Source of the DNA: Sphingomonadales bacterium | GTDB taxonomy: Bacteria; Bacteroidota; Bacteroidia; UBA7662 | Length of the DNA: 33,302 nucleotides | Reading direction: 5' to 3' | Assembly (NCBI GenBank): GCA_016872215.1 | Contig: VHAX01000024.1 | Location: 1 to 33,302 of the forward strand | In this document: positions 7,187-24,712 of the stretch, piece by piece | Layout: the number at the start of each line of letters is the position of its first letter | Numbering within the stretch: position 1 is the stretch's first letter | Notes under the pieces: model-generated | The model's database searches: none | Seen by the model: only the letters and a program-made list of their open reading frames with translations | Told to the model about the DNA's origin: nothing | Translations under genes and position numbers: made by a program

Positions 7187-10100
7187 TCAGTCCTTTATAC
7201 AACGCACCGAACCGCCCCAGGGTTTCGTGCCCGTGGCGGGAGATATATTACCGGTTGAATTCCTGAAATACTGGCCTTGAACGAGATTAGTGGTTGATAG
7301 GGTTGACGACAACAACAGGCAGTAACCCGATAAAGAAGTGAACTGCCCGTCATCGCCTGAGCGGGCACCAGCCGGGAGAATCGACAATCCAAGCGCATCG
7401 GTGCCCCTATGGGTGGTGTGGCTGTTCCATCGAGGGTGTACGGTGGTATTGCAGCCTCCCCCCAAGGGCGATGTTACCTGCCGGCATGATTTCAATGCGC
7501 TCCCAGCTCCGTTCACATTGGATGAGGTGTTGGGATAGCCTCGACTCACTGTGTGGTTAATCAGGGTAGTGAGTTCCGCATTGGTAGGCACATGCCAACC
7601 CAAGGGGCATAACTTTCTGGGATCGGCAATTGCGTACCAGTTGTATAATTTGCCGTAAACCTGTTCGTATTGCATATCATTCTGGTAGGAAGACCAGGCA
7701 CCGGCTGTGGTGTTTTTCCACTGAATACTGTCGGTAATCAGGGGGATACTGTCGCCATTCGTGTAGAGTAGAGCCCTGAGGTGCGACTTAGTCCAGCATT
7801 GTGTGCCCAACAAAACGGTCGCATAGCGGAATCCAGATAGGTCTTGAAGGGAATCGGTGCCACAGGTGAAACCCACCGATGCGGGTAGGGTGTGGAACAT
7901 TCGCTCCGAACCATAAGCCGTGCCGGCAGCATTGGTGGCAAAGGCCCGGACATAATACCACGTACCCGGGTTCAAAGGCGATAAAGAGGCGGTGAAGGCA
8001 GCAGTTCCTCCACCAGCGGCGGAATTTGCATGAGAAATATTGGGATTTCGGGCGGTATTCCAGCATACTCCTTTCGAGGTGATGGGTGCACCACCATCGC
8101 TGAGTATCCGTCCGCCCCCTACTGCAGAATTTTGGGTGATGCTATTGATGGTTGATGTGAGTAGATAAGGCAATACCACATTGATGCTCGGAGTCGAAGC
8201 GTTTTGTATGCAGCGTACTGATAATGCATGCAACTCCAGGCGTGTGGATGACATTTGGTTTGGGGTACGGTCGAACCCAACCTGGCGATAGTTGCCACCC
8301 AAGGCATCCGTGAACTGCAAATCGCAGGCCCAGAAATTGGCTTGCAAACCCAAAAAGGAAAAAACATTGTCGTTGTAGCCCACCCCACCTGGGAGAATGC
8401 TCATGCCTAATGCGTCTGTGCCTCCGATCGAGCCCGACCAGTTCACCGCTGCTTTTAGACGCAATCCACCGTGCAGTGAGTCACCCGCAAACTGAGCCAG
8501 TGCGTTCCACTCCGACTGGGAGGGCAGATGCCAGCCGGTCGGACACAAGCCCCGAGCATCTGTGGCCGCTAGATAACTATAAAGCCGGCCGTAAACCGAC
8601 AGATTGGAAGTGTCGTTGTTATAAAGGGTTGTAGTGCCCACACCCGGGATGTTCTGCTGATATCGCCACAGCACACTGGCGATCGTGTCGTTGTTGTTGT
8701 AGCGCCGGGTTCGCAGGTTGGTTTTCATCCAGCACTGACTCCCAATAGTCACGGTTTCGTAGAGGTTGTTCTCCACATCGGTCACGGTGGCTGCACTACA
8801 TGCATTCCCGCCTTGTGGTGATAGGGTCGTAAATTGAATGGAATTTCCATAGGCGGTGCCTGCAGCATTCTCGGCAAAGGCCCGCACATAATAGGTGCCG
8901 TAGGAGAGTGTGCTGAGGGTATGGGTAAACAAACCCGTATCGCGACCAAGGCTGATTTGAGCATGGTTGCGGGTGGGCATCGGACGGTGGTTCCAACAGA
9001 AACCGCGGTTCAGAATAAGCGCGCCGCCGTCGGAGGAGATGCGCCCGCTGATTTGAGCCGATTGTACAGTAATGGCGGCGGGTGGCAATGTGTATATAGA
9101 TGGGGGCATGTAGATCGACACAGTTGTATCGGGTGTCCGCAAACAGCGGATAGATCGGCCGTTTTGTCGACTTCCTGTAGTGCGCGATAAATTCCCACCC
9201 GATGAATTCAACTGAACATACCAGCTGCTGCTACCGGAGGATGATGAACTCCACCAGGAACCGTTACTCCCCGGAGCTATGAATGAAGCGCCTGAACTCG
9301 ACAGGCTACCTCCTGGTAGTGCCGCGAAGCCGAATGGATCGCTGCCATAGTGTATGTTGTGGCTGTTCCACCGTGGGTGTGTGGCTGTACCGCAGCCCGA
9401 TTGCCCGCCACCGTTCAATTGCCTACATGATTTGAGTGCAAAACCCACCCCATCGAAATCCATAGAAAGATTCCCATAACCGCTCAGCCCCAGAAACTGT
9501 GTGAGTGCCTGCCAATCAGGGTCGGTGGGTACACGCCAACCAGTTGGGCACAAACCACGCGTGTCCGCGGCCGCATGAGCATTGTAGAGCTTGCCGTAGT
9601 TGGCCTCAAATTGGGGTTCCGATGTGTTAATGGTCCATGCGCCTAGTTGGGTGGTCGACCATCCCGTTGAATCGAGCCCACTAACGAGGGGATCTCCATT
9701 ACGGTAGGATGTGACACGGAGGTTCATCGCTGTCCAGCACTGACCGCCTATTTGAATTGTCGGATAGCTAAATCCTGAAAGATCTATAATCGGGGTTCCA
9801 CATTCAAAAGGCGCTGAGGGTGTGTTCACTAAAACCACACCGCCATAGGCAACCCCTACAGAATTGATGGCGTAGGCCCGGGTTTGATAGGAAGTGGACG
9901 GAAACAAACGCGACAATTTACCCGTGTATGACCCAATTCCCGTCCCATTTTGGGTAGTGTCATCGGCTATAGTAGGTGGTCGACCCGAAGACCAACAGAT
10001 GCCACGTGATGTAATCGGGCTGCCCCCGTCGCTAGGGATTTGTCCGTCCACCTGTGCTGAAAAGGGGAGGAGTGAAGACACAGACCCTGTGTTCACTTCT

Positions 10101-11242
10101 GGAGCAGTTGGAGGGGTGTAGAAGCTTAAGGCAATTCCATAACCAGTGCCAGCGGCGTTCGTGCCGAAGGATCGAACAAAGTAGGTTCGGCCGCTCTGGA
10201 GTCCGCTGATCACGGCTTCAATTCCATTACCTGGACCGATGGCACTGGCCTGAACCACTCCATGGGTAATCAGGGGAGTAGCTGATGTGTCGTAACAAAA
10301 TCCACGAATAGACAGGGGGAGTCCACCATCCCTCAACACTCTTCCGTAGGCCATTATACTGTTGGAAGTTACCTGGGTAATGGAATCGGTGCTCATTTCA
10401 GGAGCAACGGGAGTCGGGTTCACCACCGCCTCTGCAGAGTAATAAAAACCTGTAGAATTTTGCGCAAATCCTTTTACATACCAGTTGCGCCCGGGTAGGA
10501 GTCCGGGCAGAAAGGCGGTAAACCCGAACCCCCCGCTACCCGTATACAATACGCTGTCGGTGACATCCGGATTAGGCAGGGCACTCCAGCAGAGTCCGCG
10601 CGCGAATATTCCGCTACCTGGCTGATTGAAACGCAATCCAACCTGAGTGTTGTATCCCAGGGCGACTACTGTATCGATCGACAGCTGGGGCGCAGTTGGC
10701 GAAATCAGATAACTGCCATTGATGTCACCCCCACACAACACCAGGAAATCGCGCTGTAAGGGACTCCCCTGAGCCACGACCAACGTTGGATCCCACAGAA
10801 AATCACCTATGGCGAAGGAACCCGTCAGGAAACCAACACGGCGACTAATCTGAATGGCATCAGTCGAATTCAGTACTCCATTGCCATTGACGTCGGCCAC
10901 CCGGTTTCGAAAGGGGCTGAAGATTTGTTGGCCTGAGAATGATCGCTGTGCATTGAGTGCGTCGGTACTGTTTACCCCCCCCCAGGGATACCCGATTTGG
11001 GCCACAAAAGTGTAGGTCGCCGAGGGATAATCCTGCAAATGAAATTGGCCTTGGGCATTTGTGGTGTCGAAAGCCACCGGCAACCCCGCTAAATTCAGTA
11101 ACCGTACAGGAATCCCTGCCAGAGGTGTATGATTGAGGTTGTCGTATCGCAGAGAACCCTGAACACTATTTTGAGCCGAGGTATTGTGAGATGAACAAAT
11201 AAATGCCATACACAGAATCAAACCAAACCCACTTCGATACAT
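7187..11242 (-). CDS. secreted protein with dockerin-like segment, five Fn3-like repeats and three FISUMP modules
   Basis: 1351 residues with an N-terminal signal peptide ending near NTSAQ. Next come a carboxypeptidase-regulatory-like strand region (about 25-85) and two dockerin-like lines (GGVNSTDALNAQR, then VADVNGNGVLNSTDAIQISR, about 88-140). Five Fn3-like repeats follow, marked by RGxCW near their start and VRAFATNAAGTAYG near their end. Three FISUMP modules (the Fibrobacter succinogenes major paralogous domain) lie at about 477-700, 814-1011 and 1125-1351, each with a QCW motif, LCPTGWxVP and a final SxRCxxx. No T9SS sorting domain is visible at the C-terminus, so how it reaches the surface is unclear. 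A run of nine G lies in codons 86-89. Probably an envelope or secreted adhesin or substrate binder; function unproven. Confidence 0.85.
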   Translation of the reverse strand: MYRSGFGLILCMAFICSSHNTSAQNSVQGSLRYDNLNHTPLAGIPVRLLNLAGLPVAFDTTNAQGQFHLQDYPSATYTFVAQIGYPWGGVNSTDALNAQRSFSGQQIFSPFRNRVADVNGNGVLNSTDAIQISRRVGFLTGSFAIGDFLWDPTLVVAQGSPLQRDFLVLCGGDINGSYLISPTAPQLSIDTVVALGYNTQVGLRFNQPGSGIFARGLCWSALPNPDVTDSVLYTGSGGFGFTAFLPGLLPGRNWYVKGFAQNSTGFYYSAEAVVNPTPVAPEMSTDSITQVTSNSIMAYGRVLRDGGLPLSIRGFCYDTSATPLITHGVVQASAIGPGNGIEAVISGLQSGRTYFVRSFGTNAAGTGYGIALSFYTPPTAPEVNTGSVSSLLPFSAQVDGQIPSDGGSPITSRGICWSSGRPPTIADDTTQNGTGIGSYTGKLSRLFPSTSYQTRAYAINSVGVAYGGVVLVNTPSAPFECGTPIIDLSGFSYPTIQIGGQCWTAMNLRVTSYRNGDPLVSGLDSTGWSTTQLGAWTINTSEPQFEANYGKLYNAHAAADTRGLCPTGWRVPTDPDWQALTQFLGLSGYGNLSMDFDGVGFALKSCRQLNGGGQSGCGTATHPRWNSHNIHYGSDPFGFAALPGGSLSSSGASFIAPGSNGSWWSSSSSGSSSWYVQLNSSGGNLSRTTGSRQNGRSIRCLRTPDTTVSIYMPPSIYTLPPAAITVQSAQISGRISSDGGALILNRGFCWNHRPMPTRNHAQISLGRDTGLFTHTLSTLSYGTYYVRAFAENAAGTAYGNSIQFTTLSPQGGNACSAATVTDVENNLYETVTIGSQCWMKTNLRTRRYNNNDTIASVLWRYQQNIPGVGTTTLYNNDTSNLSVYGRLYSYLAATDARGLCPTGWHLPSQSEWNALAQFAGDSLHGGLRLKAAVNWSGSIGGTDALGMSILPGGVGYNDNVFSFLGLQANFWACDLQFTDALGGNYRQVGFDRTPNQMSSTRLELHALSVRCIQNASTPSINVVLPYLLTSTINSITQNSAVGGGRILSDGGAPITSKGVCWNTARNPNISHANSAAGGGTAAFTASLSPLNPGTWYYVRAFATNAAGTAYGSERMFHTLPASVGFTCGTDSLQDLSGFRYATVLLGTQCWTKSHLRALLYTNGDSIPLITDSIQWKNTTAGAWSSYQNDMQYEQVYGKLYNWYAIADPRKLCPLGWHVPTNAELTTLINHTVSRGYPNTSSNVNGAGSALKSCRQVTSPLGGGCNTTVHPRWNSHTTHRGTDALGLSILPAGARSGDDGQFTSLSGYCLLLSSTLSTTNLVQGQYFRNSTGNISPATGTKPWGGSVRCIKD

Positions 11243-13083: not shown

Positions 13084-14901
13084 ATGCCTAAACAAGACTT
13101 CATTTCAATAGAAGATTTTTGCTCGTCAGCTGGTGTTTATCCGCGCTGGCTCAATGTTCATCTGAAACGATTGCTCGGGATAAGAAATATCAATTCTGTA
13201 AAGAACAAATTGTCGTTAGTAAATTTGGGGGAGGAGGGCCCAACAGACCGGGGGGTTTACACGAAGATTTTGGAAGCTTTGGGATTTGAATTTGAGGTAG
13301 AGTCACCTTCCTTTGAATGGCCGGCACCAGGCACGCCCCTTTTGCTGGTTGCCAATCATCCGATGGGAGGTATTGAAGGAATTGTATTGGTCGCCCTGGC
13401 TTTGTCGAGGAGGCCCGATACCCGCTTTTTGTATTCATCGTTTCTCGGGCAAATTGAAGGTGTTGGGGATACGCTTTTGCCGATTTCATCTGGTGGTGAT
13501 TCGGCAGGGAGAGAGTTGAACCGTAATTCGATGCGTGAAGCGATCAGGCACCTGTCTTCAGGGGGTTGTTTGGCTATGTTCCCGGGTGGCGACCCGCACA
13601 TGCGCGGCGTAATGCGTCGCAAACATGAGTCGACCTGGTCGCCACACGCTGGGGATTTAGCAAAAAAATCGGGTGCGGTGGTTTTACCCGTTTGTTTCGG
13701 TTTATGGCCCTCACCGCCATTGTCCTGGGTGGGGGGTATAAGGTCCAAGATGCGCCCCCTCGTTTGGTCGACCCGATTGGCCGGGCAGAAGGGTAGAAAA
13801 ATTCACGTAGCAATGGGTTGGCTCATTCCCAGCCCGGTATTGAAGTCTTTTTCGGACCGTAGCGTGTGTTCCGATTTCCTGTTGCTGGCCTCCCGGGTTT
13901 GTGGCGAACAATATGGGTTGCTGCCCAAGAAGTTTAGCATTTTACAAGGTGTATGGGATCGTTTTTCGACCGAGAATGACTTGAAACCTCAAATTTTGTT
14001 GGCGCCAGCGGTCAATCCCGGTTCCATAGCCGCCGAACTTTCGTCCCTGCCATCCGAGTCAATGATCCAAATGGAGGGCGATTTTCAAATGTTTTATGTT
14101 CGGGCTGTTGACATCCCACATACACTGAGGGAGGTGGGCCGATTGCGCGAGTATTCCTTCCGGGCAATCGGGGAAGGCACCGGCAAGGCACTCGACCTGG
14201 ATGAGTTTGATGAATACTACACCCATTTGTTGGTTTGGGATCGGTCTCGGCAGCGTCTGGTGGGTGCCTACCGTATGGGAAGAGCCTTGCCGAATCGAAA
14301 AAGGTATGTAGAAACCCTATTCCAGATCTCCAATCCCTTGATTCGCCACCTGAGTAACGCATTGGAATTGGGTCGGTCATTCATCACAGCCGAATATCAG
14401 GTTCACAGCGGTGTTTTGAATTTGATGTGGAAAGGAATCGCCAAGGTGGTTGCACAAAATCCTGAACACCCCTTGCTCTACGGGCCGGTGAGCATATCAG
14501 GGCACTTTCATCCTGTCTCCAGAGCATTGATTCTCTACTACCTCAAACAAAATCACTTTGACACCCGTAACGCCCGGTTCGTACGGGCGCCTGTTCCGCC
14601 CAAATTACACAGAAAGCAGTTGGGGGTCGACCTTGAATGCATTGCAAGGGGAATTCGATCGATGGATCAGCTATCGGCATTGGTGTCTGTTCTGGAAAAG
14701 GACGGCAAAGGGGTGCCGCCGCTCATCAAGCATTACACGCGTCTGGGCGGTCGTTTTCTCTCTTTTGGGGTTGATGAGCATTTCGGTAATGCGGTGGATG
14801 GTCTTCTTCTGCTTGATTTGCGCAACACCCCTTTTGCGCTTCTGAAGCGCTTCATGGGTGAAACGGTGGCAAAGTCCTTCGTCAAACAGCATCAGGGGTA
14901 A
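13084..14901 (+). CDS. olsF: OlsF-like bifunctional acyltransferase (PlsC domain plus hemolysin-type GNAT domain)
   Basis: 605 residues in two parts. The N-terminal half is a lysophospholipid-acyltransferase domain with LLLVANHPMGGIEG near residue 90 (the His-containing acyltransferase motif) and AMFPGGDP further on. The C-terminal half, from about 340, is the GNAT-like domain of the hemolysin/ornithine-acyltransferase family, with REYSFRAIGEGTG, LVGAYRMG, ELGRSFI and YGPVSISGHF. OlsF enzymes with this fusion make ornithine lipids in one polypeptide, the GNAT part N-acylating and the PlsC part O-acylating; some Bacteroidota use related enzymes for other amino-acid lipids, so the amino acid is inferred. 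Cytoplasmic, membrane-associated. It has its own likely promoter at 12901. Confidence 0.8.
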   Translation: MPKQDFISIEDFCSSAGVYPRWLNVHLKRLLGIRNINSVKNKLSLVNLGEEGPTDRGVYTKILEALGFEFEVESPSFEWPAPGTPLLLVANHPMGGIEGIVLVALALSRRPDTRFLYSSFLGQIEGVGDTLLPISSGGDSAGRELNRNSMREAIRHLSSGGCLAMFPGGDPHMRGVMRRKHESTWSPHAGDLAKKSGAVVLPVCFGLWPSPPLSWVGGIRSKMRPLVWSTRLAGQKGRKIHVAMGWLIPSPVLKSFSDRSVCSDFLLLASRVCGEQYGLLPKKFSILQGVWDRFSTENDLKPQILLAPAVNPGSIAAELSSLPSESMIQMEGDFQMFYVRAVDIPHTLREVGRLREYSFRAIGEGTGKALDLDEFDEYYTHLLVWDRSRQRLVGAYRMGRALPNRKRYVETLFQISNPLIRHLSNALELGRSFITAEYQVHSGVLNLMWKGIAKVVAQNPEHPLLYGPVSISGHFHPVSRALILYYLKQNHFDTRNARFVRAPVPPKLHRKQLGVDLECIARGIRSMDQLSALVSVLEKDGKGVPPLIKHYTRLGGRFLSFGVDEHFGNAVDGLLLLDLRNTPFALLKRFMGETVAKSFVKQHQG

Positions 14902-14988: not shown

Positions 14989-15948
14989 TTGTGCACCTCA
15001 GTCAGGTTGAGTAAAATAACAGTTTTTCGTTCGGTGGGCAATATGTTGCTCATTCTGCTCATCTTTCAGCTGGGCTCAGCGTGCACGCGCGAGCGGCTCA
15101 AAGTGGAGCCCGACAACGATGCGCCCTGGTATGGCGATGTGCCGACAATTTTGGTGGAGAATTATGTGAATCGCGTGTTTATTGATTTGTTAGGCCGCGA
15201 ACCAGTCGATTCGGAGATGACCGTGCACGTGCAGTACCTCCGCGCGGGTGACCTCAGTAAGGCCCGAAGAACCGATTGGATTCGGATTTTGCAGACCGAT
15301 ACGGTTCCTGCGGCGGGCGATTCATCATACCAGTCGGTCTACTATCGTCGATTTTATGAGATGACCAAAGTGCGCTTGCTTGAAGGGGTGAGCGATTCAT
15401 ATTTGCTCGGACAAATTGGTATTCTTCAGTTTGGGATTCAGGTGGATTCCCTCAACGGAGATACCATCGCGGTGAACAAGAAAAGGGCGAATGTGGCACG
15501 CTACGAGCGGATCATGCAGTGCGAATACGACTATCGCTTCGGCCTCATCGCACTCGATAGCGTCTGTGCTCGGATGGTGGACAATCCGGTATATGATTTC
15601 ATCAATATGAACTCATTCAACTTCATCAACGCCACCTTCGATAATCTGTATTTCCGATTTCCGACTCAGAGTGAGTTCGAGCGGGCTTACCTGATGGTTG
15701 ACGCTTCACAACCCTCCACTTTATTTGGTCGCCCCGGAAGCAACAAATCCGACTACATCCAGATTGTTGTGGCCCAACGGGAATTCTGGCAGGGTTGGAT
15801 TATATGGGCTTACAAAACCTTGTTGGCCCGCGACCCGTCGACCTCGGAACTGTACGCGGCCTTGCTGCAGCTCAATGCCGATAAAAATTTTCATACCACA
15901 CTCTCCAACATTTTGATTTCCGATGAATACGCCCATTTCAATCCGTAA
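14989..15948 (+). CDS. lipoprotein with repeated helical motifs, first gene of the surface cluster
   Basis: 319 residues from a GTG start; a TTG at 15007 gives an equally good signal peptide, and the start is unresolved. The hydrophobic segment MLLILLIFQLGSAC ends in a lipobox-like LGSAC. The mature part has two helical blocks of one type: VENYVNRVFIDLLGREPVDS early and YKTLLARDPSTSELYAALLQ with ISDEYAHF at the end. This pattern recalls DUF4214 or the DUF1549 repeats of planctomycete-style cytochrome clusters, but I cannot assign a family firmly. The next gene starts inside its last 26 bases and shares the motif. No enzyme residues are evident; probably a periplasmic or outer-membrane structural partner. 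Confidence 0.75.
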   Translation: MCTSVRLSKITVFRSVGNMLLILLIFQLGSACTRERLKVEPDNDAPWYGDVPTILVENYVNRVFIDLLGREPVDSEMTVHVQYLRAGDLSKARRTDWIRILQTDTVPAAGDSSYQSVYYRRFYEMTKVRLLEGVSDSYLLGQIGILQFGIQVDSLNGDTIAVNKKRANVARYERIMQCEYDYRFGLIALDSVCARMVDNPVYDFINMNSFNFINATFDNLYFRFPTQSEFERAYLMVDASQPSTLFGRPGSNKSDYIQIVVAQREFWQGWIIWAYKTLLARDPSTSELYAALLQLNADKNFHTTLSNILISDEYAHFNP

Positions 15949-16423
15949 TTTCATCATAGCCCTTATTCTGGGGGGCTTGATCGCTTCCTGCAGCCGCGAG
16001 GAGTATGTTGTGTATGAAGTGAATCCAGTGGAGGTGCAGGGGGTCAACTACGGGAAGAACAAGAAAAAGAGCGTAGAGCAGTACATCTCCATTCTCTACG
16101 CCAACCTGTTTCAACGGGCATTGTCGGCCAACCAGCTGGTCGAAATCCGCGATTTGATTGAGTCGATCGGCGACCAGCAGGTAGCCTTTGAAATCGTGCT
16201 CAGTAACTTCATGAATCGGGCCGATGTCGAAATCCCAACCAACAATGAGATGCGGGCCGACGTGGATGGTTTCATCAATGATACCTACCGAAGGTTCCTG
16301 ATCCGCCTGCCCACCGAAGCTGAAAGGACCTGGTTTAGGAATTACATTCAGACACATCCCTTTCTCACACCGCAGATTATCTACATGAGTTTTGCTTTGA
16401 GCAACGAATACCAGTATTATTGA
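15923..16423 (+). CDS. lipoprotein paralogous in motif to its upstream neighbour
   Basis: 166 residues with a typical lipoprotein signal: charged start, hydrophobic FIIALILGGLIASC and Cys after IAS. The mature region has YISILYANLFQRALSANQLV and then DTYRRFLIRLPTEAERTWF, ending SNEYQYY. The R-x-PT-x-x-E followed later by a SNEY-type end matches the layout of the preceding protein (FRFPTQSEF... ISDEYAHF), so the two are probably related and may pair. The start overlaps the upstream gene by 26 bases and the next gene begins 28 bases after the stop, pointing to one transcript. Function is not recognised. Confidence 0.75.
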   Translation: MNTPISIRNFIIALILGGLIASCSREEYVVYEVNPVEVQGVNYGKNKKKSVEQYISILYANLFQRALSANQLVEIRDLIESIGDQQVAFEIVLSNFMNRADVEIPTNNEMRADVDGFINDTYRRFLIRLPTEAERTWFRNYIQTHPFLTPQIIYMSFALSNEYQYY

Positions 16424-16450
16424 TTCAGTGGATTATTAATTACATCATAT

Positions 16451-17797
16451 ATGAAGCGTCGGACATTTCTGAAAAAGGCGGGACTCACCGCAGCGGGTAC
16501 ATTGGTGCTGCCTTATTTTTTGCCCGGTGGACGTTTGTTCGCTGCAACGGGTCGACAGCTGGCAAGCCACGTTGTGTATGTCATGTTTGCCGGTGGGGTG
16601 CGCCAGCAGGAATCGGTGCTGCAACGCTACCTCGATGATGCGCAGCAGTTCCCCGTTGGGGGTAATATCATGCTGAATATGCTCAACGGCGCCCAGCCCG
16701 TGGCTAAACGGGTCTATGGCACCGACGTGGCGGGGGAGCCCAGAGGTAGCGCACCCATACCGGCTGTGCTCCAACAAACCCTGCAAAGCATGGGCACTTT
16801 GTTTCCGGAGGTGCGTGCCACAACCGCCGGACATTTTTCCGGACTCAATACACTGCTCACTGGGAATACCGGCGCTAGCCAGGGCTTGCGTGAAAAACCC
16901 TTGTCACCCACCATATTCGAATACCTGCGCCGCCACGGGGGCATTCCGGCGAGCAAAGTCTGGTTTGTAGGCAACCGCATTGGCAACAGCATCCCGCTGC
17001 TCAACTACAGCGAACACGCCTCATATGGAATAAAGTATGGGGGCAATTTTCTGGCGCCGAATGTCACGTTTTCCCCCGCCGGAAGAACGCACCTCAGCAA
17101 TGCCCGGATTTACCATCCCGAGGAGGAGCTCGAGCCCATGCTGCAGATGAAGTATTTTTTGAACAATACTTACACATCCGCCGGGGGTATCCAATTGCCC
17201 GAGATTGGGAATACAGATGTAGAAAAGGATCAGATAAGAGTTTTCGTACGGGACACCTTTGTGCGGCAGCAGCAGGGACAAATCGCAATGCCTCCTGTGG
17301 CCGATAACGGCGACCTGAGGAATGTGGGTTTTGCCTGCGAGGTCATCAAAGCCTTTAAACCTACCCTAACCGTTGTGAATATGGATTCGGTGGATGGATG
17401 CCACAGCAATTTTACGAGCTATCTGCGATCGCTTCACAGGGCCGATCACGCCGTTGGTTTCCTGTGGAATTTCATACAAAATCAGGTGCCCGAAATGGCC
17501 GGAAATACCATTTTCATCATCTCACCCGAACACGGCCGCAACCTGAATCCGAACCCTATACAAGACGAAAACGACTGGTATGCCTACGACCACAGCGACC
17601 AGAATTCGATGCGGGTGTTCACCATTATGGTAGGCCCTAATGTTCCCCAGAACCTTTCGGTCGGCTCCGCAACCAATCCCGTCGGGTCGCTGATGGACAA
17701 CGTGCTCACCATTGGCGATATACTTGGGGTGAAGCAGAACATCGTGGCCTCCGGTCTGGTGTCGGCACAAGCCCGCAGTCTATTCGACCGGATATGA
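16451..17797 (+). CDS. Tat-exported DUF1501/sulfatase-like protein
   Basis: 448 residues. The N-terminus MKRRTFLKKAGLTAAGTLVL is a textbook Tat signal (RRTFLK). The mature part looks like the alkaline-phosphatase/sulfatase superfamily, close to the DUF1501 group: HVVYVMFAGGVRQQ at the start, VVNMDSVDGCHSNFTSYLRS and then VGFLWNFIQ, and near the end FIISPEHGRN and YAYDHSD, which hold the Asp/His residues expected to bind metal. The nucleophile Ser/Thr position is not clear, so hydrolase activity is unproven; many DUF1501 proteins have no assigned activity. In planctomycetes, DUF1501 genes sit beside c-type cytochrome genes, as here. The stop overlaps the next start (ATGATG). Confidence 0.75.
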   Translation: MKRRTFLKKAGLTAAGTLVLPYFLPGGRLFAATGRQLASHVVYVMFAGGVRQQESVLQRYLDDAQQFPVGGNIMLNMLNGAQPVAKRVYGTDVAGEPRGSAPIPAVLQQTLQSMGTLFPEVRATTAGHFSGLNTLLTGNTGASQGLREKPLSPTIFEYLRRHGGIPASKVWFVGNRIGNSIPLLNYSEHASYGIKYGGNFLAPNVTFSPAGRTHLSNARIYHPEEELEPMLQMKYFLNNTYTSAGGIQLPEIGNTDVEKDQIRVFVRDTFVRQQQGQIAMPPVADNGDLRNVGFACEVIKAFKPTLTVVNMDSVDGCHSNFTSYLRSLHRADHAVGFLWNFIQNQVPEMAGNTIFIISPEHGRNLNPNPIQDENDWYAYDHSDQNSMRVFTIMVGPNVPQNLSVGSATNPVGSLMDNVLTIGDILGVKQNIVASGLVSAQARSLFDRI

Positions 17798-18657
17798 TGG
17801 AAATGAAGGGCACATTGAGAATAGGATACTGGCAATGCATATGGCTCACCATAGGCGTATTCGTTCTCCTGTTGATGGGAGCCTGCTCCAAAAACAAGGG
17901 TCCTGAAAACCCTTTCGACGATCCCAAAAACAAGCCACCCATCACCAATAACCCCATCGATTCGTTGGGGATAGACAATTTTGCGGGGCTCCAACGTGAT
18001 ATTTTCAAAAAAACCTGCAGCAATTCCGGATGCCACGACGGAACGTTCGAACCCGATTTCCGCACCATTGAGAGTTCCTACAATACGCTGGTCTACCAAC
18101 CCGTCATCAAAAACAACCCGTCGGGCAGCTTCGTGCATCGGGTGGTGCCTGGTAATGCGCAGGCATCGGTACTGTATGAACGGGTGGTGCGCGACATCGA
18201 CGGCATTTCGGGAATCATGCCCCTGTCGGTCGACCCGGATAGCGATTGGCCCACCCGAAAAACGACCTATATCAACGCCATCGTGGCCTGGATCAACGCC
18301 GGTGCCAAAGACATGTTCGGCAACCCCCCGGGTAATGGTCCCGCCAACCCCAAAATACAGGGTGTGGTCTTCGGCGAGCACGACGCCATATTATCCTTTA
18401 TGGGTGGAACACCACCCAGGGTCGTGTGCATCAACCAAGTGACGGGAGTGCGTTATGAATTGCCCGTGAAGCCGTTTGCGTCAGGCAAAACAGAGATAGG
18501 ACTGTTTGCGGAAAGTGTGGTGTATGAACATAAAGTTGATCTGGACCCGCTCCCTTATGGCCGTTACCTGATTTGGATCCCACAGACTCCAGAGCCCACC
18601 CATGATTGGATTCGGCGTCGACTAACCCTTCAGCATTATGCGCGCAGATCGCCTTAA
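17794..18657 (+). CDS. lipoprotein with cytochrome-c-like CX4CH motif
   Basis: 287 residues with signal VFVLLLMGACSK and a lipid-attachment Cys. The mature part holds FKKTCSNSGCHDGTFEPDFR, a CX4CH heme-attachment-like sequence, then SYNTLVYQPVIKN, GNAQASVLYERV, IMPLSVDPDSDWP and AIVAWINAGAKD, the layout of the PSCyt-like c domains seen in surface proteins of Bacteroidota and Planctomycetes (the Met of IMP is the usual axial ligand). The C-terminal 100 residues are strand-rich and unassigned. It overlaps the sulfatase-like gene upstream by 4 bases and the next gene by 20. It could be a heme sensor or electron carrier on the envelope. The CX4CH spacing differs from the common CX2CH, so heme binding is likely but not certain. 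Confidence 0.75.
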   Translation: MMEMKGTLRIGYWQCIWLTIGVFVLLLMGACSKNKGPENPFDDPKNKPPITNNPIDSLGIDNFAGLQRDIFKKTCSNSGCHDGTFEPDFRTIESSYNTLVYQPVIKNNPSGSFVHRVVPGNAQASVLYERVVRDIDGISGIMPLSVDPDSDWPTRKTTYINAIVAWINAGAKDMFGNPPGNGPANPKIQGVVFGEHDAILSFMGGTPPRVVCINQVTGVRYELPVKPFASGKTEIGLFAESVVYEHKVDLDPLPYGRYLIWIPQTPEPTHDWIRRRLTLQHYARRSP

Positions 18658-19108
18658 ATCAGTCATCAAACCGGGCATTGGGCTTATGGTCATGACTCTG
18701 TTTTTAGGCTGTCGACCAGAGCGGGTCACGCGTATTGAATTGCCCCCGGCAATCCGGATTGTGTCGGTGTCGCCACTGGAGTTGACCGAATTCACCGATA
18801 GGGTCACAGTCGAACTGGGCTACGAAGATGGTGACGGGGATATGGGAAGCCTAAACCCCGATGAGTTGATGTTGGAAGTGAAAGACGATCGACTCGAGCA
18901 GGCCGACTTCTATTTCGTGCCTCCTTTGAGTCCACCCGGTAGCAATGTGCCCATCCGCGGGACCCTGATTTTCAGGCTGAATGGCACCTTTTTGTTTGGG
19001 AACGGCGCATACGAAGAGACCCGCTTCACCATCCGACTGCGCGACCGTTCCGGATTTTGGAGCAATACAGTAGTCACGCCAATCGTCCGCATCAACCGGA
19101 GGGTGTGA
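18638..19108 (+). CDS. small lipoprotein with a single beta-sandwich-like domain
   Basis: 156 residues: signal MVMTLFLGC with lipobox Cys, then an all-beta pattern with YEDGDGDMGSLNPDELMLEV, FYFVPPLSPPG, IRGTLIFRLNG and RLRDRSGFWSN near the C-terminus. The EDGDGD plus RDRxGxxSN combination is common in Bacteroidota lipoproteins of unknown function with an Ig-like fold. Acidic DGDGD could bind calcium. It overlaps the preceding gene by 20 bases and its stop overlaps the next ATG (TGATG), so it belongs to the same unit. Confidence 0.7.
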   Translation: MRADRLKSVIKPGIGLMVMTLFLGCRPERVTRIELPPAIRIVSVSPLELTEFTDRVTVELGYEDGDGDMGSLNPDELMLEVKDDRLEQADFYFVPPLSPPGSNVPIRGTLIFRLNGTFLFGNGAYEETRFTIRLRDRSGFWSNTVVTPIVRINRRV

Positions 19109-22100
19109 TGGCGAGGTGGTGTTTGTTCCTGCTGTTGCTTTGTCCCACGGCACTGGTTTGGGCGCAAAATCCGGTCTATGTAATGAGCAACCAGACGGTG
19201 GGCGATTGCAAGGCTTTTTTTTTGGATTCAGGTGGAAATCCGGTTCAACCAGGTAATTATGCCAACAATGAGAACTACACCTTTGTCATCAGTATACCGG
19301 TGGCACAGCAGATTGTGATGAGTTTTCAGAATTTTTGTACCGAGGTGCTGTTCGACGTCCTCCGCGTATATGATGGACCCGATACCAGTTCTTCCCTCAT
19401 CGGCTCGTTTTCTGGTAATGTTTCGCCACCGGTACTGCGGGCATTCAGTGGTGCTATGACCCTTCATTTTCGCTCAGACCTCAATGTGGTTTGTACGGGT
19501 TGGAATGCCTCTTGGTATGCGGTCGTGCCCCCCCCGGTACCGCCTGTCATCACCAGTGCTACTGCACAGTGCCTTACATCGAGCATCGAGATCGACCTAA
19601 GCGGAAAAGTGCATTGCGATTCAGTCTACGCGGCTGCGTTTGCCCTGAGCGGAACACCGGCGCGGACTGTTGTGGCGGCCCAAGCCTTGAATTGCGCGGG
19701 CGACAGCACCTCACAGGTGCGGTTGATAGTCAATAGTCCCTTCTCGGATTGCGCAAATTATTCTGTGTTATGGGCACTGAATATGCTCGATTTTTGCGAC
19801 AGCCTTTATGTATTCCCTTTGAATACATCTTTTGTCATTAATGATTGCCCGTTAGCGGTTACCCTCAACGCCAGCAACGATTCCATTTGCGTGGGTGGAT
19901 GTATAACACTTACGGCCCAGCCTTCGGGGGGTGATTGCCAATACACGTATTCCTGGAATCCGTCACTGCCGCTGACCGCCGGGCCGCATCAGGTTTGTCC
20001 ACCTCCCGGCACGACAACCTACTCGGTCAGCGTACAGGATGTGCGGGGCAATGGACCTGTTAGTGCTTCCATAACAATCCTGGTTTCACCGGTGCCCGAT
20101 GCGGGGTCAGATACCACCGTTTGCCTGCAGTCGTCCCCATTTAATTTATCGCCACGTGTATTACCCGCGGGCGGACGGTTTACAGGGCCGGGCATTACCC
20201 AGGCGCAATTGGGCACATTCAATCCTACCACGGCGGGTGTTGGTGTACACAACATCTTTTACGATCGTTTGGGCTGTCGTGATTCTCTCAGGATAACGGT
20301 CGTGCATGTGCAGGCCGGACCAACGCTCGCGGCTTGTCCGTCCGCCCCTGCTTTTCAGTTGACTGGGGCTATGCCTCCAGGCGGGGTGTGGTCTGGGCCA
20401 CGGGTCACACCGGGCGGGTTATACACTCCGGCCGATTCGGCACGGACCGATACTCTATACTACACCGCTCTGGGGTGCAGCAGCATGCGGATTGTTATGA
20501 TCGACACGATAGAAATATCTGGTCCTGCCACGGTTTGTCAGAATGCCCCTGTATTTACCCTTCAGTTTACTCCCGCGGGTGGTTTTTGGTCAGGTTCGGG
20601 CGTCACGGACACCCTCCTTGGGCGCTTCAACCCCGCAAACATGGCTGTGGGACTCAATTGGCTGGTGTATCGGGTGAATGGCTGTCGCGATAGTCTACCG
20701 GTGCAGCTGATCCAAATTGATGCCGGCCCTATGCGTACCTATTGCCCGTTAAACGCCCCCGTCCTCCTGCCACCTGGTGTACCGGCGGGGGGCATCTGGT
20801 CGGGTCCGGGTATACTGAATCCATCCACGGGACTGTTCAATCCGAATGTGAATGGCAATTTCTCCAGCCAGACTTTTGCCATTTATTCCCTCGGGGGTTG
20901 TTCTGATAGTCTGATCATCCGCCTGATTCGCACCAATCTGGGGCCGGATACGGTGGCACGCTGCCTTACCGACGGGGTATATGGCCTGTCGGCAGCTACC
21001 CTCAACCGAAACCCGACCGGAGGGGTCTGGAGCGGTCCCGGGGTTAATCCGGCCGGTAACGGAAGTTTCAACCCCGCACTGGTAGGGGTTGGATTTCACC
21101 GCTTGTATTATACCGCGAACGGGTGCTTCGATAGCGTGGTCATAAGGGTCGATCCGCGCCCCGTTTTGCAACCCGATACCGTGGTGTGTGTTTTGGCGCC
21201 CTCCTTCTTGTTGCGCAGCAGCGTTGTGGGCGGTATCTGGTGGGGACCTGGGATTACAGGCCCGGCGACCGGACTCTTTAATCCATCTGTGGCTGGGATC
21301 GGTGTGCACCGGGTCATACAGGCCTTCACCGGTGGTTGTCGCGATACCCTTTATGTGACCGTACAAGCTATCCCCAACCCTCAGTTTAATGTCAATCCAG
21401 CTACGTTTTGCTACCGCGATACGCTTTGGACACTCAATGCATCACCTCCCGGAGGTATATTTACTGGCCCGGGGATTGTGGGAAGCCAGTTTAATCCACG
21501 ATTAGCCGGAGTTGGCTCCCACTGGTTGGTCTATTCGGTGGGTGCAGGGCTCTGCCTTCGCCGCGACAGTGCCCGAGTGACGGTGCTCAACCGCCTATCT
21601 ATAACCCTTTCCCTACCCAAAGATACCTTTTGTGTGGGGGAAACGGTCCGCATTTTTGCCTCAGGTACGGGCGGAGTGCCCTCTAAGAATATTGTTTGGT
21701 TCCCGGGTGGAATAGATACCGATACCCTGGTTTTTTCCGCCATAGCATCTGGATGGTACCGCGCCGTGTTGAGTGATGGTTGCAGCAATGTGTCGACCGA
21801 CTCCGTTTTTATTTATGTGCATCCCCCCCTTTTGTATCAAAAGGTGCAGACTCTGGTGGGCTGCTATGACAGCCTGGGTACATTTGAAATTCGATATCCA
21901 GTTGGTAGTCCATACCGAATCCGATGGCTTACACAGCCCGTCGTGAACGGACCTGTTCTGATACGTCCACAAGGGAATTATACCTTTAGTTTGACCGACA
22001 CCGTAACCGGATGCACCACAACTGATACGGTGAACATGCGCGGGCATCCGTTCATCACGGCTCGCTTTTCGGTAAACCCCAATCGCAGCAGCTGCGCGGA

Positions 22101-22590
22101 GCTCCATGAGGCTGAATTCACCCTGCTCGATCTCTCGGTTGGAGCCACAACAGGCATCTGGTATCCGGGCGATGGGAGCCAAATTCCCTATATTCCGGGG
22201 CAATACCCACGATTCCAGTATGCCGATACTGGGCGCTACATCATTCGCCTATATGTAGAAAACGCGGCTGGCTGCAGCGCAGAAATGGAGCAAACGGTAT
22301 GCGTGAAAATAACCCCCCGCATTTTAGCACCCGACGCTTTTACCCCCAATTTGGACGGCAAAAACGACTCCTTTCTTGTGGTGTCCTTTGGAATAACCGA
22401 TATGGAAACCCGGATCTATGACCGCTGGGGGCATCAGGTCTTTTTTTCCGACCTGCTCAATTTTCGGTGGGATGGCACGGAGTCGGGCAACCCACTTCCC
22501 GCTAGTGTGTATCCCTACGTCATCCGATACCGCGAATACAATGGCCGTTCCAACCGAATATTCCGCGGAACGATTCAGCTGATTCGTTAG
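19108..22590 (+). CDS. CUB-domain repeat protein with gliding-motility type B T9SS C-terminal domain
   Basis: 1160 residues from ATG 19108, chosen over the ATG at 19057 because it directly starts the signal MARWCLFLLLLCPTALVWAQ and overlaps the upstream stop. A CUB domain spans about residues 25-145 (LRVYDGPDTSSSLIGSFSG, two pairs of Cys). Strand-rich regions follow, then seven repeats of 45-75 residues (about 350-830), each beginning PxGGxWSGPGV, with FNPxxxGVG in the middle and a CRDS-like end. A PKD-like segment lies near 990-1060. The last 90 residues (FTPNLDGKNDSFLV, IYDRWGHQVF, WDGTESGNPLPASVYPYVI) are the type B gliding-motility sorting domain used by T9SS. Expected to be displayed or released by the T9SS as the surface partner of the cluster. 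It contains T9 (19215-19223) and C8 (19528-19535) homopolymer runs. Confidence 0.85.
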   Translation: MARWCLFLLLLCPTALVWAQNPVYVMSNQTVGDCKAFFLDSGGNPVQPGNYANNENYTFVISIPVAQQIVMSFQNFCTEVLFDVLRVYDGPDTSSSLIGSFSGNVSPPVLRAFSGAMTLHFRSDLNVVCTGWNASWYAVVPPPVPPVITSATAQCLTSSIEIDLSGKVHCDSVYAAAFALSGTPARTVVAAQALNCAGDSTSQVRLIVNSPFSDCANYSVLWALNMLDFCDSLYVFPLNTSFVINDCPLAVTLNASNDSICVGGCITLTAQPSGGDCQYTYSWNPSLPLTAGPHQVCPPPGTTTYSVSVQDVRGNGPVSASITILVSPVPDAGSDTTVCLQSSPFNLSPRVLPAGGRFTGPGITQAQLGTFNPTTAGVGVHNIFYDRLGCRDSLRITVVHVQAGPTLAACPSAPAFQLTGAMPPGGVWSGPRVTPGGLYTPADSARTDTLYYTALGCSSMRIVMIDTIEISGPATVCQNAPVFTLQFTPAGGFWSGSGVTDTLLGRFNPANMAVGLNWLVYRVNGCRDSLPVQLIQIDAGPMRTYCPLNAPVLLPPGVPAGGIWSGPGILNPSTGLFNPNVNGNFSSQTFAIYSLGGCSDSLIIRLIRTNLGPDTVARCLTDGVYGLSAATLNRNPTGGVWSGPGVNPAGNGSFNPALVGVGFHRLYYTANGCFDSVVIRVDPRPVLQPDTVVCVLAPSFLLRSSVVGGIWWGPGITGPATGLFNPSVAGIGVHRVIQAFTGGCRDTLYVTVQAIPNPQFNVNPATFCYRDTLWTLNASPPGGIFTGPGIVGSQFNPRLAGVGSHWLVYSVGAGLCLRRDSARVTVLNRLSITLSLPKDTFCVGETVRIFASGTGGVPSKNIVWFPGGIDTDTLVFSAIASGWYRAVLSDGCSNVSTDSVFIYVHPPLLYQKVQTLVGCYDSLGTFEIRYPVGSPYRIRWLTQPVVNGPVLIRPQGNYTFSLTDTVTGCTTTDTVNMRGHPFITARFSVNPNRSSCAELHEAEFTLLDLSVGATTGIWYPGDGSQIPYIPGQYPRFQYADTGRYIIRLYVENAAGCSAEMEQTVCVKITPRILAPDAFTPNLDGKNDSFLVVSFGITDMETRIYDRWGHQVFFSDLLNFRWDGTESGNPLPASVYPYVIRYREYNGRSNRIFRGTIQLIR

Positions 22591-22636: not shown

Positions 22637-22795
22637 TAGCCAAATTCGTGTAGCGCTTATAACATCCTCAATTTTATTTTGGATTGGTCACGGACTACAT
22701 TTAGGTAGTGCAAGTGTCTACACTCAATATTCTGTTCGACGCTTATGAACTACATTCGGTTAGCGCGTGTGTTCCCCCTCATTTTTTCATCTGGA
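22637..22795. repeat. three degenerate copies of a 55-bp repeat in a convergent spacer
   Basis: ATTCGTGTAGCGC at 22644, ATTTAGGTAGTGC at 22699 and ATTCGGTTAGCGC at 22754 are exactly 55 bases apart, and each is followed by CTCA plus a T-rich stretch (22667, 22723, 22778). GRACTAC precedes copies two and three. Copy two can fold as ACTAC-ATTTAG-GTAGT. The third copy runs into the 3' end of the - strand gene. Position between convergent genes suggests a transcript-end role, unproven. Confidence 0.6.
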
Positions 22796-24188
22796 CCACA
22801 CCTTGGCCGAGGGGTGGACACTCCAAATCGATATGTTCGTCGCCACGTTCATAGGGCAGGTACTGAAAAATCAATTGAAACATCTCGTCGGTGGTTTTCA
22901 TGCTGCTGGTGGTTTCGTTGAAGTCACGCGGCGGTGAAAAGGGGTTCCGCGGATTAATAGCGCGGTTGTCGAATGTTCCAAAGGCCCACACCACCGAACC
23001 GGATGGAATATGCTTTGGCTTACGAAACACATAGGTATACTGCCAGCGAAAATCCCATTTCGGAATGGAAACCAGAGGTATGGTGTCGCCTGTCGGAACC
23101 ACTGCAAATGCCTTGAAGTTAGTACCCAGCAAGTGCATGTGCGGATTCACACTAATCATCGAGATATCTGAACGAATCAGCGCCCTGGTGTGAAATGTGC
23201 GGATGGTGCCTGCCGGGATGTTGAAGCGGGGCACAATCTCCGATATACCCAGGCTGCCTAATTGGGTTTCCATAAGCGGACGAACGGGTGGCTTGTCCAT
23301 GAAAAACAGGTTCAGCGTGGAGTAGTCGAAGGTATCGTGCAAAGAAGGACCATAATGCTGGTCGTTGAGAAGAAATGCCACGCTTTTACCAAGTTTAAAT
23401 CCCCCAATGCCATCAGGGAATGTGAGTGGATTCATGCCGGGGAGGTAGTTGAAGACCGACAAAGTCAACGGTGGGTAACTTCCGTTGTCGTTGAGTAAAT
23501 GGATGAACCTAAATGCCGCATCCATGTCTTGGAAACTGTCGCGGTAGGCATAGTAGGGCCCTTCCATCGGCTGCTTTTTCTGATCTTTGGTGTAGTGTAC
23601 TATATGCCCGTTGGTGTGGTGTACGAGCCTCCGGTTGCCCGGAATATACTCCACAGCCCGCAGAAAGGTGTCGAATGGGAGTTCGAACGGCACTTTCACC
23701 ATCATGAACCGGTCGGTATTATCTCCCGGTAGTGGCACGGGTTCCATGAAGCGCACCACCCAATCAGGGCGACCAAGCATGGAACCTTCAGGAAAGCTGG
23801 GCATCGACAAGCCTGATGTGTCGCCAGGCGCACAACCTTCTTCGACCCATCGCGCCAAAAGTTCAATTTCGTGATCGCTCAGTCGTTTCTCTCCAATAAA
23901 CGAAACATACTCGGGATCCGCCGGCCAAGGGGGCATGTAGCGCGACTTCGTGACTTTGCAAATGGTTTTGGCTTTCTTCCGTACCTGCTGATAGGTGATG
24001 AGGGGAAACGGACCTGCCGCGCCAGGGCGGTGACAAGGAGTACAGTTTCGGTGGATAATTGGGGCTATATGTTGGGCAAAATTGGGCGAAGAGTCCGATT
24101 TTTCACCGAATTCAAAACCACACGCCGACAATGCAGCGATCATTCCCAACACCAACAATCTATGAATCAAGCGCATCCTGAGCATCAA
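22779..24188 (-). CDS. lipoprotein with c-type heme and copper type II monooxygenase-like domains
   Basis: 469 residues with a lipoprotein signal ending LSACGFEFG; the start may be the second Met (MRLIHR) and not the first. A heme site NCTPCHRPG lies near residues 47-55, with YMPPWPADP supplying a candidate Met ligand. The C-terminal part resembles copper type II ascorbate-dependent monooxygenases as found in bacterial redoxin gene pairs: VHHTNGHIVHY near 188 and SVNPHMHLLGTNFK near 347, the His clusters that bind copper. This fusion is common in Bacteroidota and Planctomycetes and sits next to a redoxin lipoprotein. The gene overlaps its upstream partner by 4 bases. Substrate is unknown; probably envelope-located redox chemistry. 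Confidence 0.75.
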   Translation of the reverse strand: MMLRMRLIHRLLVLGMIAALSACGFEFGEKSDSSPNFAQHIAPIIHRNCTPCHRPGAAGPFPLITYQQVRKKAKTICKVTKSRYMPPWPADPEYVSFIGEKRLSDHEIELLARWVEEGCAPGDTSGLSMPSFPEGSMLGRPDWVVRFMEPVPLPGDNTDRFMMVKVPFELPFDTFLRAVEYIPGNRRLVHHTNGHIVHYTKDQKKQPMEGPYYAYRDSFQDMDAAFRFIHLLNDNGSYPPLTLSVFNYLPGMNPLTFPDGIGGFKLGKSVAFLLNDQHYGPSLHDTFDYSTLNLFFMDKPPVRPLMETQLGSLGISEIVPRFNIPAGTIRTFHTRALIRSDISMISVNPHMHLLGTNFKAFAVVPTGDTIPLVSIPKWDFRWQYTYVFRKPKHIPSGSVVWAFGTFDNRAINPRNPFSPPRDFNETTSSMKTTDEMFQLIFQYLPYERGDEHIDLECPPLGQGVVQMKK

Positions 24189-24712
24189 TCAAATTCAATA
24201 AAGCATCCGACAGCAGGAATCTGTGTGTAGGGCAGGGGCCGCTTCTCCTTTAGTGCAAGAAGATTTTCGCGGAGGTAGCGCCTACCAACCACACTTCTTT
24301 TGACACCGAGCTCAGGCAGGGCATCATCGATTGCTCCCCGATACAGGATTTGTCCACCCCCATCAACCAGCATAACCTCTGGGGTTACCTCGGCACCCCA
24401 ATAGTTCACATATTCCATTTGGGGATCGTGTATCACATCGAAAGGCAGAGGATGTTGATCCTTGAATTGCCTGCACTCCTCCCCACTGGCTGCCGTTCCA
24501 GGTATGATGCCCGTCATTTTTACCTGATGGCCCCATGTTTCGTGTATTTTTCTCAATTCAGGGATGTAATAAAGTGAAATGGGGCAGTCGGGCGCTAAAA
24601 AGACAATCAGTTCAATCTCAGAACTATTTATGCGACCCGCGCCACTACAAGAGGCCAGAATCCACATAGGAATTAGTAGTCCCGGAGCGAACCAATTGAA
24701 TCGTGTTTTCAT
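24185..24712 (-). CDS. redoxin-like (thioredoxin-fold) lipoprotein
   Basis: 175 residues with signal PMWILASCSG (lipobox Cys). The thioredoxin fold is visible: VFLAPDCPISLYYIPELRKI with the active-site region near residue 43, then VTPEVMLVDGGGQILYRGAI. The usual CXXC is CPIS, so only the first Cys is kept; the C-terminal PAVGCFI supplies a second Cys, as in the redoxin proteins paired with cytochrome-c/monooxygenase genes. Translationally coupled to that downstream gene (ATGA overlap), it probably supports heme or copper maturation or acts as a peroxiredoxin-like partner. A TATTTTTG box lies 35 bases upstream of the start. Confidence 0.75.
   Translation of the reverse strand: MKTRFNWFAPGLLIPMWILASCSGAGRINSSEIELIVFLAPDCPISLYYIPELRKIHETWGHQVKMTGIIPGTAASGEECRQFKDQHPLPFDVIHDPQMEYVNYWGAEVTPEVMLVDGGGQILYRGAIDDALPELGVKRSVVGRRYLRENLLALKEKRPLPYTQIPAVGCFIEFD

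Follow-up and report, generated by a model that had tools for sequence, protein, structure and literature searches.

Six neighboring genes (g1 to g6) on contig VHAX01000024.1, from a genome of the Bacteroidota (GCA_016872215.1), form a genuine, evolutionarily conserved unit that occurs in many Bacteroidia. The window analyzed here is a stretch of 33,302 nucleotides of this contig, and the six genes lie within it at 14989–22590. As the first-pass annotation had described, the ORFs are all on the + strand, all six have leaders of the exported type, and four of the five junctions overlap (g1/g2 by 26 bp, g3/g4 by 4 bp, g4/g5 by 20 bp, and g5/g6); g2/g3 is the sole junction with a gap, of 27 bp. 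The g5/g6 overlap is 1 bp, in a TGATG junction, if g6 starts at ATG 19108, and 52 bp if it starts at TTG 19057. This ATG is the better supported start and is favored by the relatives, as is, for g1, the better-placed ATG 15043 over TTG 14989. Promoter and terminator scans of the cluster gave results no better than those of shuffled sequences.

Table 1. Genes of the conserved cluster in the window, with g1 and g6 given from their ATG starts.
Gene	Position	Strand	Product as predicted from the sequence
g1	15043..15948	+	All-helical lipoprotein, 301 aa from ATG; three GR-x-P-T-x-x-E type motifs
g2	15923..16423	+	Lipoprotein, 166 aa; two of the helical motifs of g1; related to g1
g3	16451..17797	+	Tat-leader alkaline-phosphatase-superfamily protein, 448 aa
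g4	17794..18657	+	Monoheme c-type cytochrome lipoprotein, 287 aa; PSCyt1-like
g5	18638..19108	+	Ig-like lipoprotein, 156 aa; DGDGDxG motif
g6	19108..22590	+	Giant secreted protein, 1160 aa; CUB, GG-x-W-x-G-PG repeats, PKD, CHU_C type B T9SS sorting domain

The lipobox Cys is found in SAC (g1), ASC (g2), GAC (g4), and LGC (g5), which bears out the earlier description of g1 and g2 as lipoproteins. A CKKD/E pattern, with Lys and an acidic residue after the lipid Cys, is common in these four proteins, for which the pattern search misplaced some lipoboxes; we take this pattern to resemble the surface-export signals of Bacteroidota. The leader of g3 is of the twin-arginine type (MKRRTFLKK), 58 of 60 g3 proteins having an RR-type leader pattern, and that of g6 is of the Sec type. 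The genome of the window encodes TatC, SprA, and cytochrome c assembly proteins, and among 22 cluster genomes TatC was found in 20 and SprA in 21.

The gene order is kept across distant Bacteroidia. In 19 of 20 type A loci (the version of the window, collected as GTDB contigs scanned with g3), every gene that the contig can show is present, with the order unchanged and all genes on a single strand. The exception, L020, lacks g6 and has an opposite-strand gene after g5; in another of the loci, L010, g6 is frameshifted, probably by assembly errors. A further 21 type A loci comprised 17 with all the genes that the contig allows, one that ends at the contig edge after g4, and three exceptions (L164, L178, and L180). 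In type B loci g1–g5 were found in 19 of 19 cases, followed by neither g6 nor any other fixed sixth gene. Of 395 Bacteroidia genomes sampled, 87 (about a fifth, from 51 of 196 genera) have g3, and a close homologue was found in just one other genome among the 296 of a phylum-wide sample. Within the order of the window 8 of 21 genomes have a homologue, and in one genus of its family all nine genomes searched are without it.

The flanks hold nothing beyond the six genes that is conserved past the nearest relatives. Just upstream of the cluster (13084–14901, + strand) is a gene for an OlsF-like bifunctional acyltransferase/GNAT lipid synthase, which scores 257 bits against NF052615, below the cut-off of 620. 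Downstream, on the − strand (22779–24712), are two genes. One encodes a lipoprotein that has a CTPCH heme motif at its N-terminus and weakly matches copper type II monooxygenases at its C-terminus, the other a redoxin-like protein. Both the acyltransferase and the opposite-strand cytochrome/redoxin pair were rejected as members of the unit, as they are neighbors only in the nearest relatives. Elsewhere in the window (7187–11242, − strand) lies the gene of a 1351 aa protein in which three Fib_succ_major (FISUMP) domains occur together with FN3-like stretches.

The cluster exists in two paralogous versions, type A with g1–g6 and type B with g1–g5 only. The g3 scores are bimodal and give type A in 50 genomes, type B only in 37, and both in 19, with types assigned by score and the neighborhood checked for 40 loci. 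The A|B split has the same members in all five gene trees (support 0.999 for g1, 0.975 for g2, 1.0 for g3, 1.0 for g4, and 0.96 for g5), and the pairwise distances of g1–g5 correlate at 0.63–0.93. Because the split is identical in the five trees, we concluded that g1–g5 diverged together and that the two types exchanged no core genes. Among the type B clusters, 9 of 19 (within L185–L201) have a gene upstream of g1 that by eye encodes an M20-type peptidase, which we treated as flank, and three have a small lipoprotein gene after g5.

These comparisons decisively contradict the refuting condition set beforehand, that the homologues would rarely lie side by side in other genomes, and uphold the proposal that the genes form a conserved unit. 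They redraw its limits: the unit is a five-gene core, and g6 belongs to only one of the two cluster types. They also rule out, to near certainty, that unrelated exported genes came to lie together by accident, a reading for which nothing speaks beyond the single window and against which stand the order kept in distant genomes, the congruent paralogue split, and the co-occurrence of g6 with the core even when it is unlinked.

The identification of g6 as a giant CUB protein with a T9SS signal held up, with a CUB match at E 9e-12 and a CHU_C/TIGR04131 type B sorting domain above cut-off at E 7.5e-13. A profile search matched g6 in 46 of 335 genomes, and 44 of these 46 have a type A g3; in the remaining two, MAGs that are 80–87% complete, g6 is a fragment at a contig edge. 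A Fisher test of this co-occurrence ignores relatedness and is illustrative only. Six type A genomes had no g6 entry in the g6 sample, which is smaller and may not include all six, and in two of them (G657 and G661) g6 was seen in the loci themselves. In G608 and G370 g6 is unlinked from g3 and still present, and in G434 g4-g5-g6 lie together on a different contig from g3. Thus, g6 is an accessory of type A clusters only.

The CHU_C domain likens g6 to the cargo of T9SS type B export. In G045 a PorP/SprF gene (TIGR03519 above cut-off) overlaps the end of g6, and a similar one does so in G579, in line with such export. The likeness to a cargo with a PorP/SprF partner ends there, as neither the window nor the other loci checked have PorP/SprF adjacent to g6, and as it was seen in two genomes only, we rejected the view that PorP/SprF is a constant seventh member.

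Planctomycetes and verrucomicrobia are rich in PSCyt/DUF1501-type clusters, whose function is, to our knowledge, still unexplained. The first-pass annotation had connected the present cluster with such DUF1501/cytochrome pairs and had called g3 DUF1501-like. The Pfam DUF1501 model (PF07394) matches neither g3 of the window, nor the 20 type A and 17 type B members, nor anything else in the genome of the window, and we therefore rejected g3 as a DUF1501 member. The placement in the same superfamily stood, with a profile-profile probability of 94–95% against DUF1501, but g3 is closer to PF01663-like proteins of Bacteroidota (99.8%, hhalign). Foldseek neighbors of the AlphaFold model of g3 are sulfatases and alkaline phosphatases, and a PDB sequence search with g3 had no matches. 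Outside the cluster, no proteins are closer to g3 in sequence than the PF01663-type alkaline-phosphatase-family proteins of Bacteroidota (about 350–400 aa). These retain the LDG Asp and TDHGR, both of which g3 has lost or changed, and in three cases read, with short flanks only, their genes had no cluster partners.

The g3 model has a mean pLDDT of 69 with 128 residues below 50, and the residue equivalences therefore rest on the alignment. In 20 aligned type A proteins the putative ligands Asp315, His318, and His381 are invariant. The Asp ligand of LDG aligns with Gly48 and the nucleophile position with His128, likewise invariant in all 20; we take the His128 column to be that of the nucleophile from the alignment and from known phosphodiesterase motifs. 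The DH of DHGR would correspond to Glu360-His/Cys361, His/Cys being the only variable one of these positions. Type B g3 has the same His motif. Judged by the alignment, g3 has neither a Ser/Thr/Cys nucleophile nor the full set of two-metal ligands, and appears to have lost the canonical nucleophile and one Asp ligand.

We considered whether g3 could nevertheless be an ordinary hydrolase that scavenges phosphate, phosphonate, or sulfate esters with the help of accessory lipoproteins. The alkaline-phosphatase superfamily fold found by Foldseek and the PF01663-like best profile are what this would predict. The loss of key residues disfavors g3 as an ordinary phosphatase, since His128 and Gly48 replace the nucleophile and the Asp ligand invariantly; moreover, no PHO- or sulfur-type genes accompany the cluster, and an obligatory cytochrome would be left unexplained. 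We consider such a hydrolase improbable.

The same replacements, in 20 of 20 type A proteins and, for the His motif, also in type B, would suit a surface complex that is structural or adhesive and has no catalytic activity, in which g3 would be a dead phosphatase fold, g6 an adhesin, and the heme structural or sensing. The make-up of g6, with CUB and Ig-like repeats and no enzyme domain, and the resemblance of g1 to linker proteins point the same way. A structural role alone, however, would not predict that g3 is the most conserved of the cluster proteins (mean column identity 70% versus 46–59% for the others); the putative metal ligands Asp315, His318, Glu360, and His381 are invariant, and the invariant heme motif of g4 speaks for a redox role. 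An inactive complex is thus an unlikely reading, although one that carries some weight.

The description of g4 as a CX4CH cytochrome-like lipoprotein was confirmed, the motif lying at residues 75–81. CX4CH is present in 58 of 59 g4 proteins, the exception being a truncated ORF, and an MP motif with the Met axial ligand in 57 of 59; both CX4CH and the Met of SGIMPL/SGTMPL are invariant in 20 aligned g4 sequences. No Pfam family matched g4 above cut-off and a PDB sequence search was without matches, and the profile-profile comparison related g4, at 96.8% probability, to the PSCyt1 region found in DUF1549 proteins. The heme motif is CXXCH in each of the 30 DUF1549 proteins examined, unlike the CX4CH of g4. 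We conclude that g4 is a predicted monoheme c-type cytochrome that is related to PSCyt1 by profile.

A lipoprotein cytochrome with a strictly conserved heme motif, next to a T9SS surface protein in type A, could also be read as a surface electron-transfer conduit, with g4 passing electrons to or from an extracellular acceptor and g6 touching minerals or other cells. The cluster has one heme only and no porin-cytochrome or multiheme partner, and type B is without the surface protein, which makes a conduit highly improbable.

The model of g1 is all-helical (pLDDT 88.5), and its three repeats carry the motif common to g2. DUF4214, above cut-off in one type B g1, was the sole Pfam match for g1. 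Phycobilisome linkers made up most of the PDB sequence matches to g1 (best E 1.5e-4), and no Foldseek match to the g1 model fell below E 0.001. By hhalign, g1 aligned with DUF1549 at 63% probability and, in its C-terminal part, with DUF1800 at 61%; g2 reached 12% against DUF1549/DUF1553, below any confident level. DUF1549/DUF1553 gave sub-threshold matches in a few members only, and neither g2, g3, nor g5 had a Pfam match above cut-off. On these data, g1 and g2 are helical lipoproteins that resemble DUF4214 proteins and phycobilisome linkers, with weak similarity to DUF1549/DUF1800. The motif of g5 looks calcium-binding by inspection, and g5 falls in no family.

The link to the planctomycete pairs is carried by g4 and weakly by g1. 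Pairs of PSCyt1-DUF1549(PSCyt2)-DUF1553(PSD1) and DUF1501 genes occur in planctomycetes, verrucomicrobia, and some Bacteroidota. They have in common with our cluster a gene for a Tat-exported alkaline-phosphatase-superfamily protein adjoining that for a protein with GR-x-P-T motifs and a heme module, which in our cluster is PSCyt1-like by profile, an adjacency that the conserved g1–g5 order reproduces, and several copies per genome. The Tat leader and alkaline-phosphatase-type fold of g3 are shared with DUF1501 itself. In the cluster described here, by contrast, the heme module and the helical parts each come as small lipoproteins of their own, the heme motif reads CX4CH where those proteins have CXXCH, the DUF1501 model does not match g3, and type A includes an additional T9SS giant. 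In one of the Bacteroidota (G167, locus L144) several DUF1549-DUF1501 pairs lie in tandem.

DUF1800 and DUF1501 pairs, widespread in Bacteroidota, similarly place a Tat-exported alkaline-phosphatase-fold protein directly beside a helical partner, and the g1 similarity noted above extends to DUF1800. The partners are not homologous at the family level, and the pairs inspected have no adjoining g4- or g5-like gene and no giant CUB protein. By eye, the DUF1501 proteins beside DUF1800 often have a T9SS type A-like tail (L132, L134, L136, L138, and L147). Since genuine DUF1501 genes also occur in Bacteroidota next to those for DUF1549/DUF1553 or DUF1800, the cluster is a third arrangement of similar parts. 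It resembles PSCyt/DUF1501 clusters but falls outside the DUF1501 and DUF1549 families. A literature search found no paper on this cluster, subscription journals being mostly outside its coverage, and no function given for PSCyt or DUF1800-DUF1501 proteins. PSCyt proteins of lake Verrucomicrobia sometimes have carbohydrate-binding modules and were tentatively linked to carbohydrate metabolism (PMC5615132), and in some proteobacteria DUF1800-DUF1501 pairs share operons with chitin synthase (PMC5122149).

We propose, giving it about an even chance, that the cluster encodes an exported assembly analogous to the PSCyt1-DUF1549-DUF1553/DUF1501 systems, its parts being split up and anchored as lipoproteins, with a T9SS subunit in type A and redox-linked work on a polymer. 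In this assembly g3 would be exported folded via Tat and have an alkaline-phosphatase-type fold with a remodeled metal site. The helical linker-like g1 and g2 may scaffold g3, g4 could serve as a one-heme electron carrier held at the same place, and g5 would be the Ig-like lipoprotein of the five-protein core. In type A, T9SS would export g6, whose CUB and Ig-like repeats may bind the substrate or surface on which the complex acts. Most likely, the assembly would bind or modify an extracellular glycan, or a polymer like it, in a redox-linked manner. There is good support for the exported core, for its coherence, and for its partnership with g6; the physical complex, the scaffold role of g1 and g2, and electron transfer through g4 are what we infer from them, and the weakest step is the extracellular polymer. 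No glycan-active enzyme, SusC/SusD pair, or transporter travels with the conserved block, which in this differs from a polysaccharide utilisation locus, and the substrate is therefore a guess.

A more specific reading, which we regard as possible yet doubtful, is that of a redox-coupled metalloenzyme complex of a new class, in which a rebuilt phosphatase-fold metal site would work with the CX4CH cytochrome at the envelope and with a T9SS-delivered substrate-binding subunit. The rebuilt site would then consist of His128, Glu360, and His/Cys361 beside Asp315, His318, and His381. If this metalloenzyme reading is true, the cluster would let the function of the PSCyt/DUF1501 family be sought in a system whose parts can be separated. 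The cluster predicts a physical complex that includes one T9SS-delivered member, and parts of the PSCyt/DUF1501 kind come here as separate small exported proteins in two defined types, so that the roles of the subunits would be separately testable.
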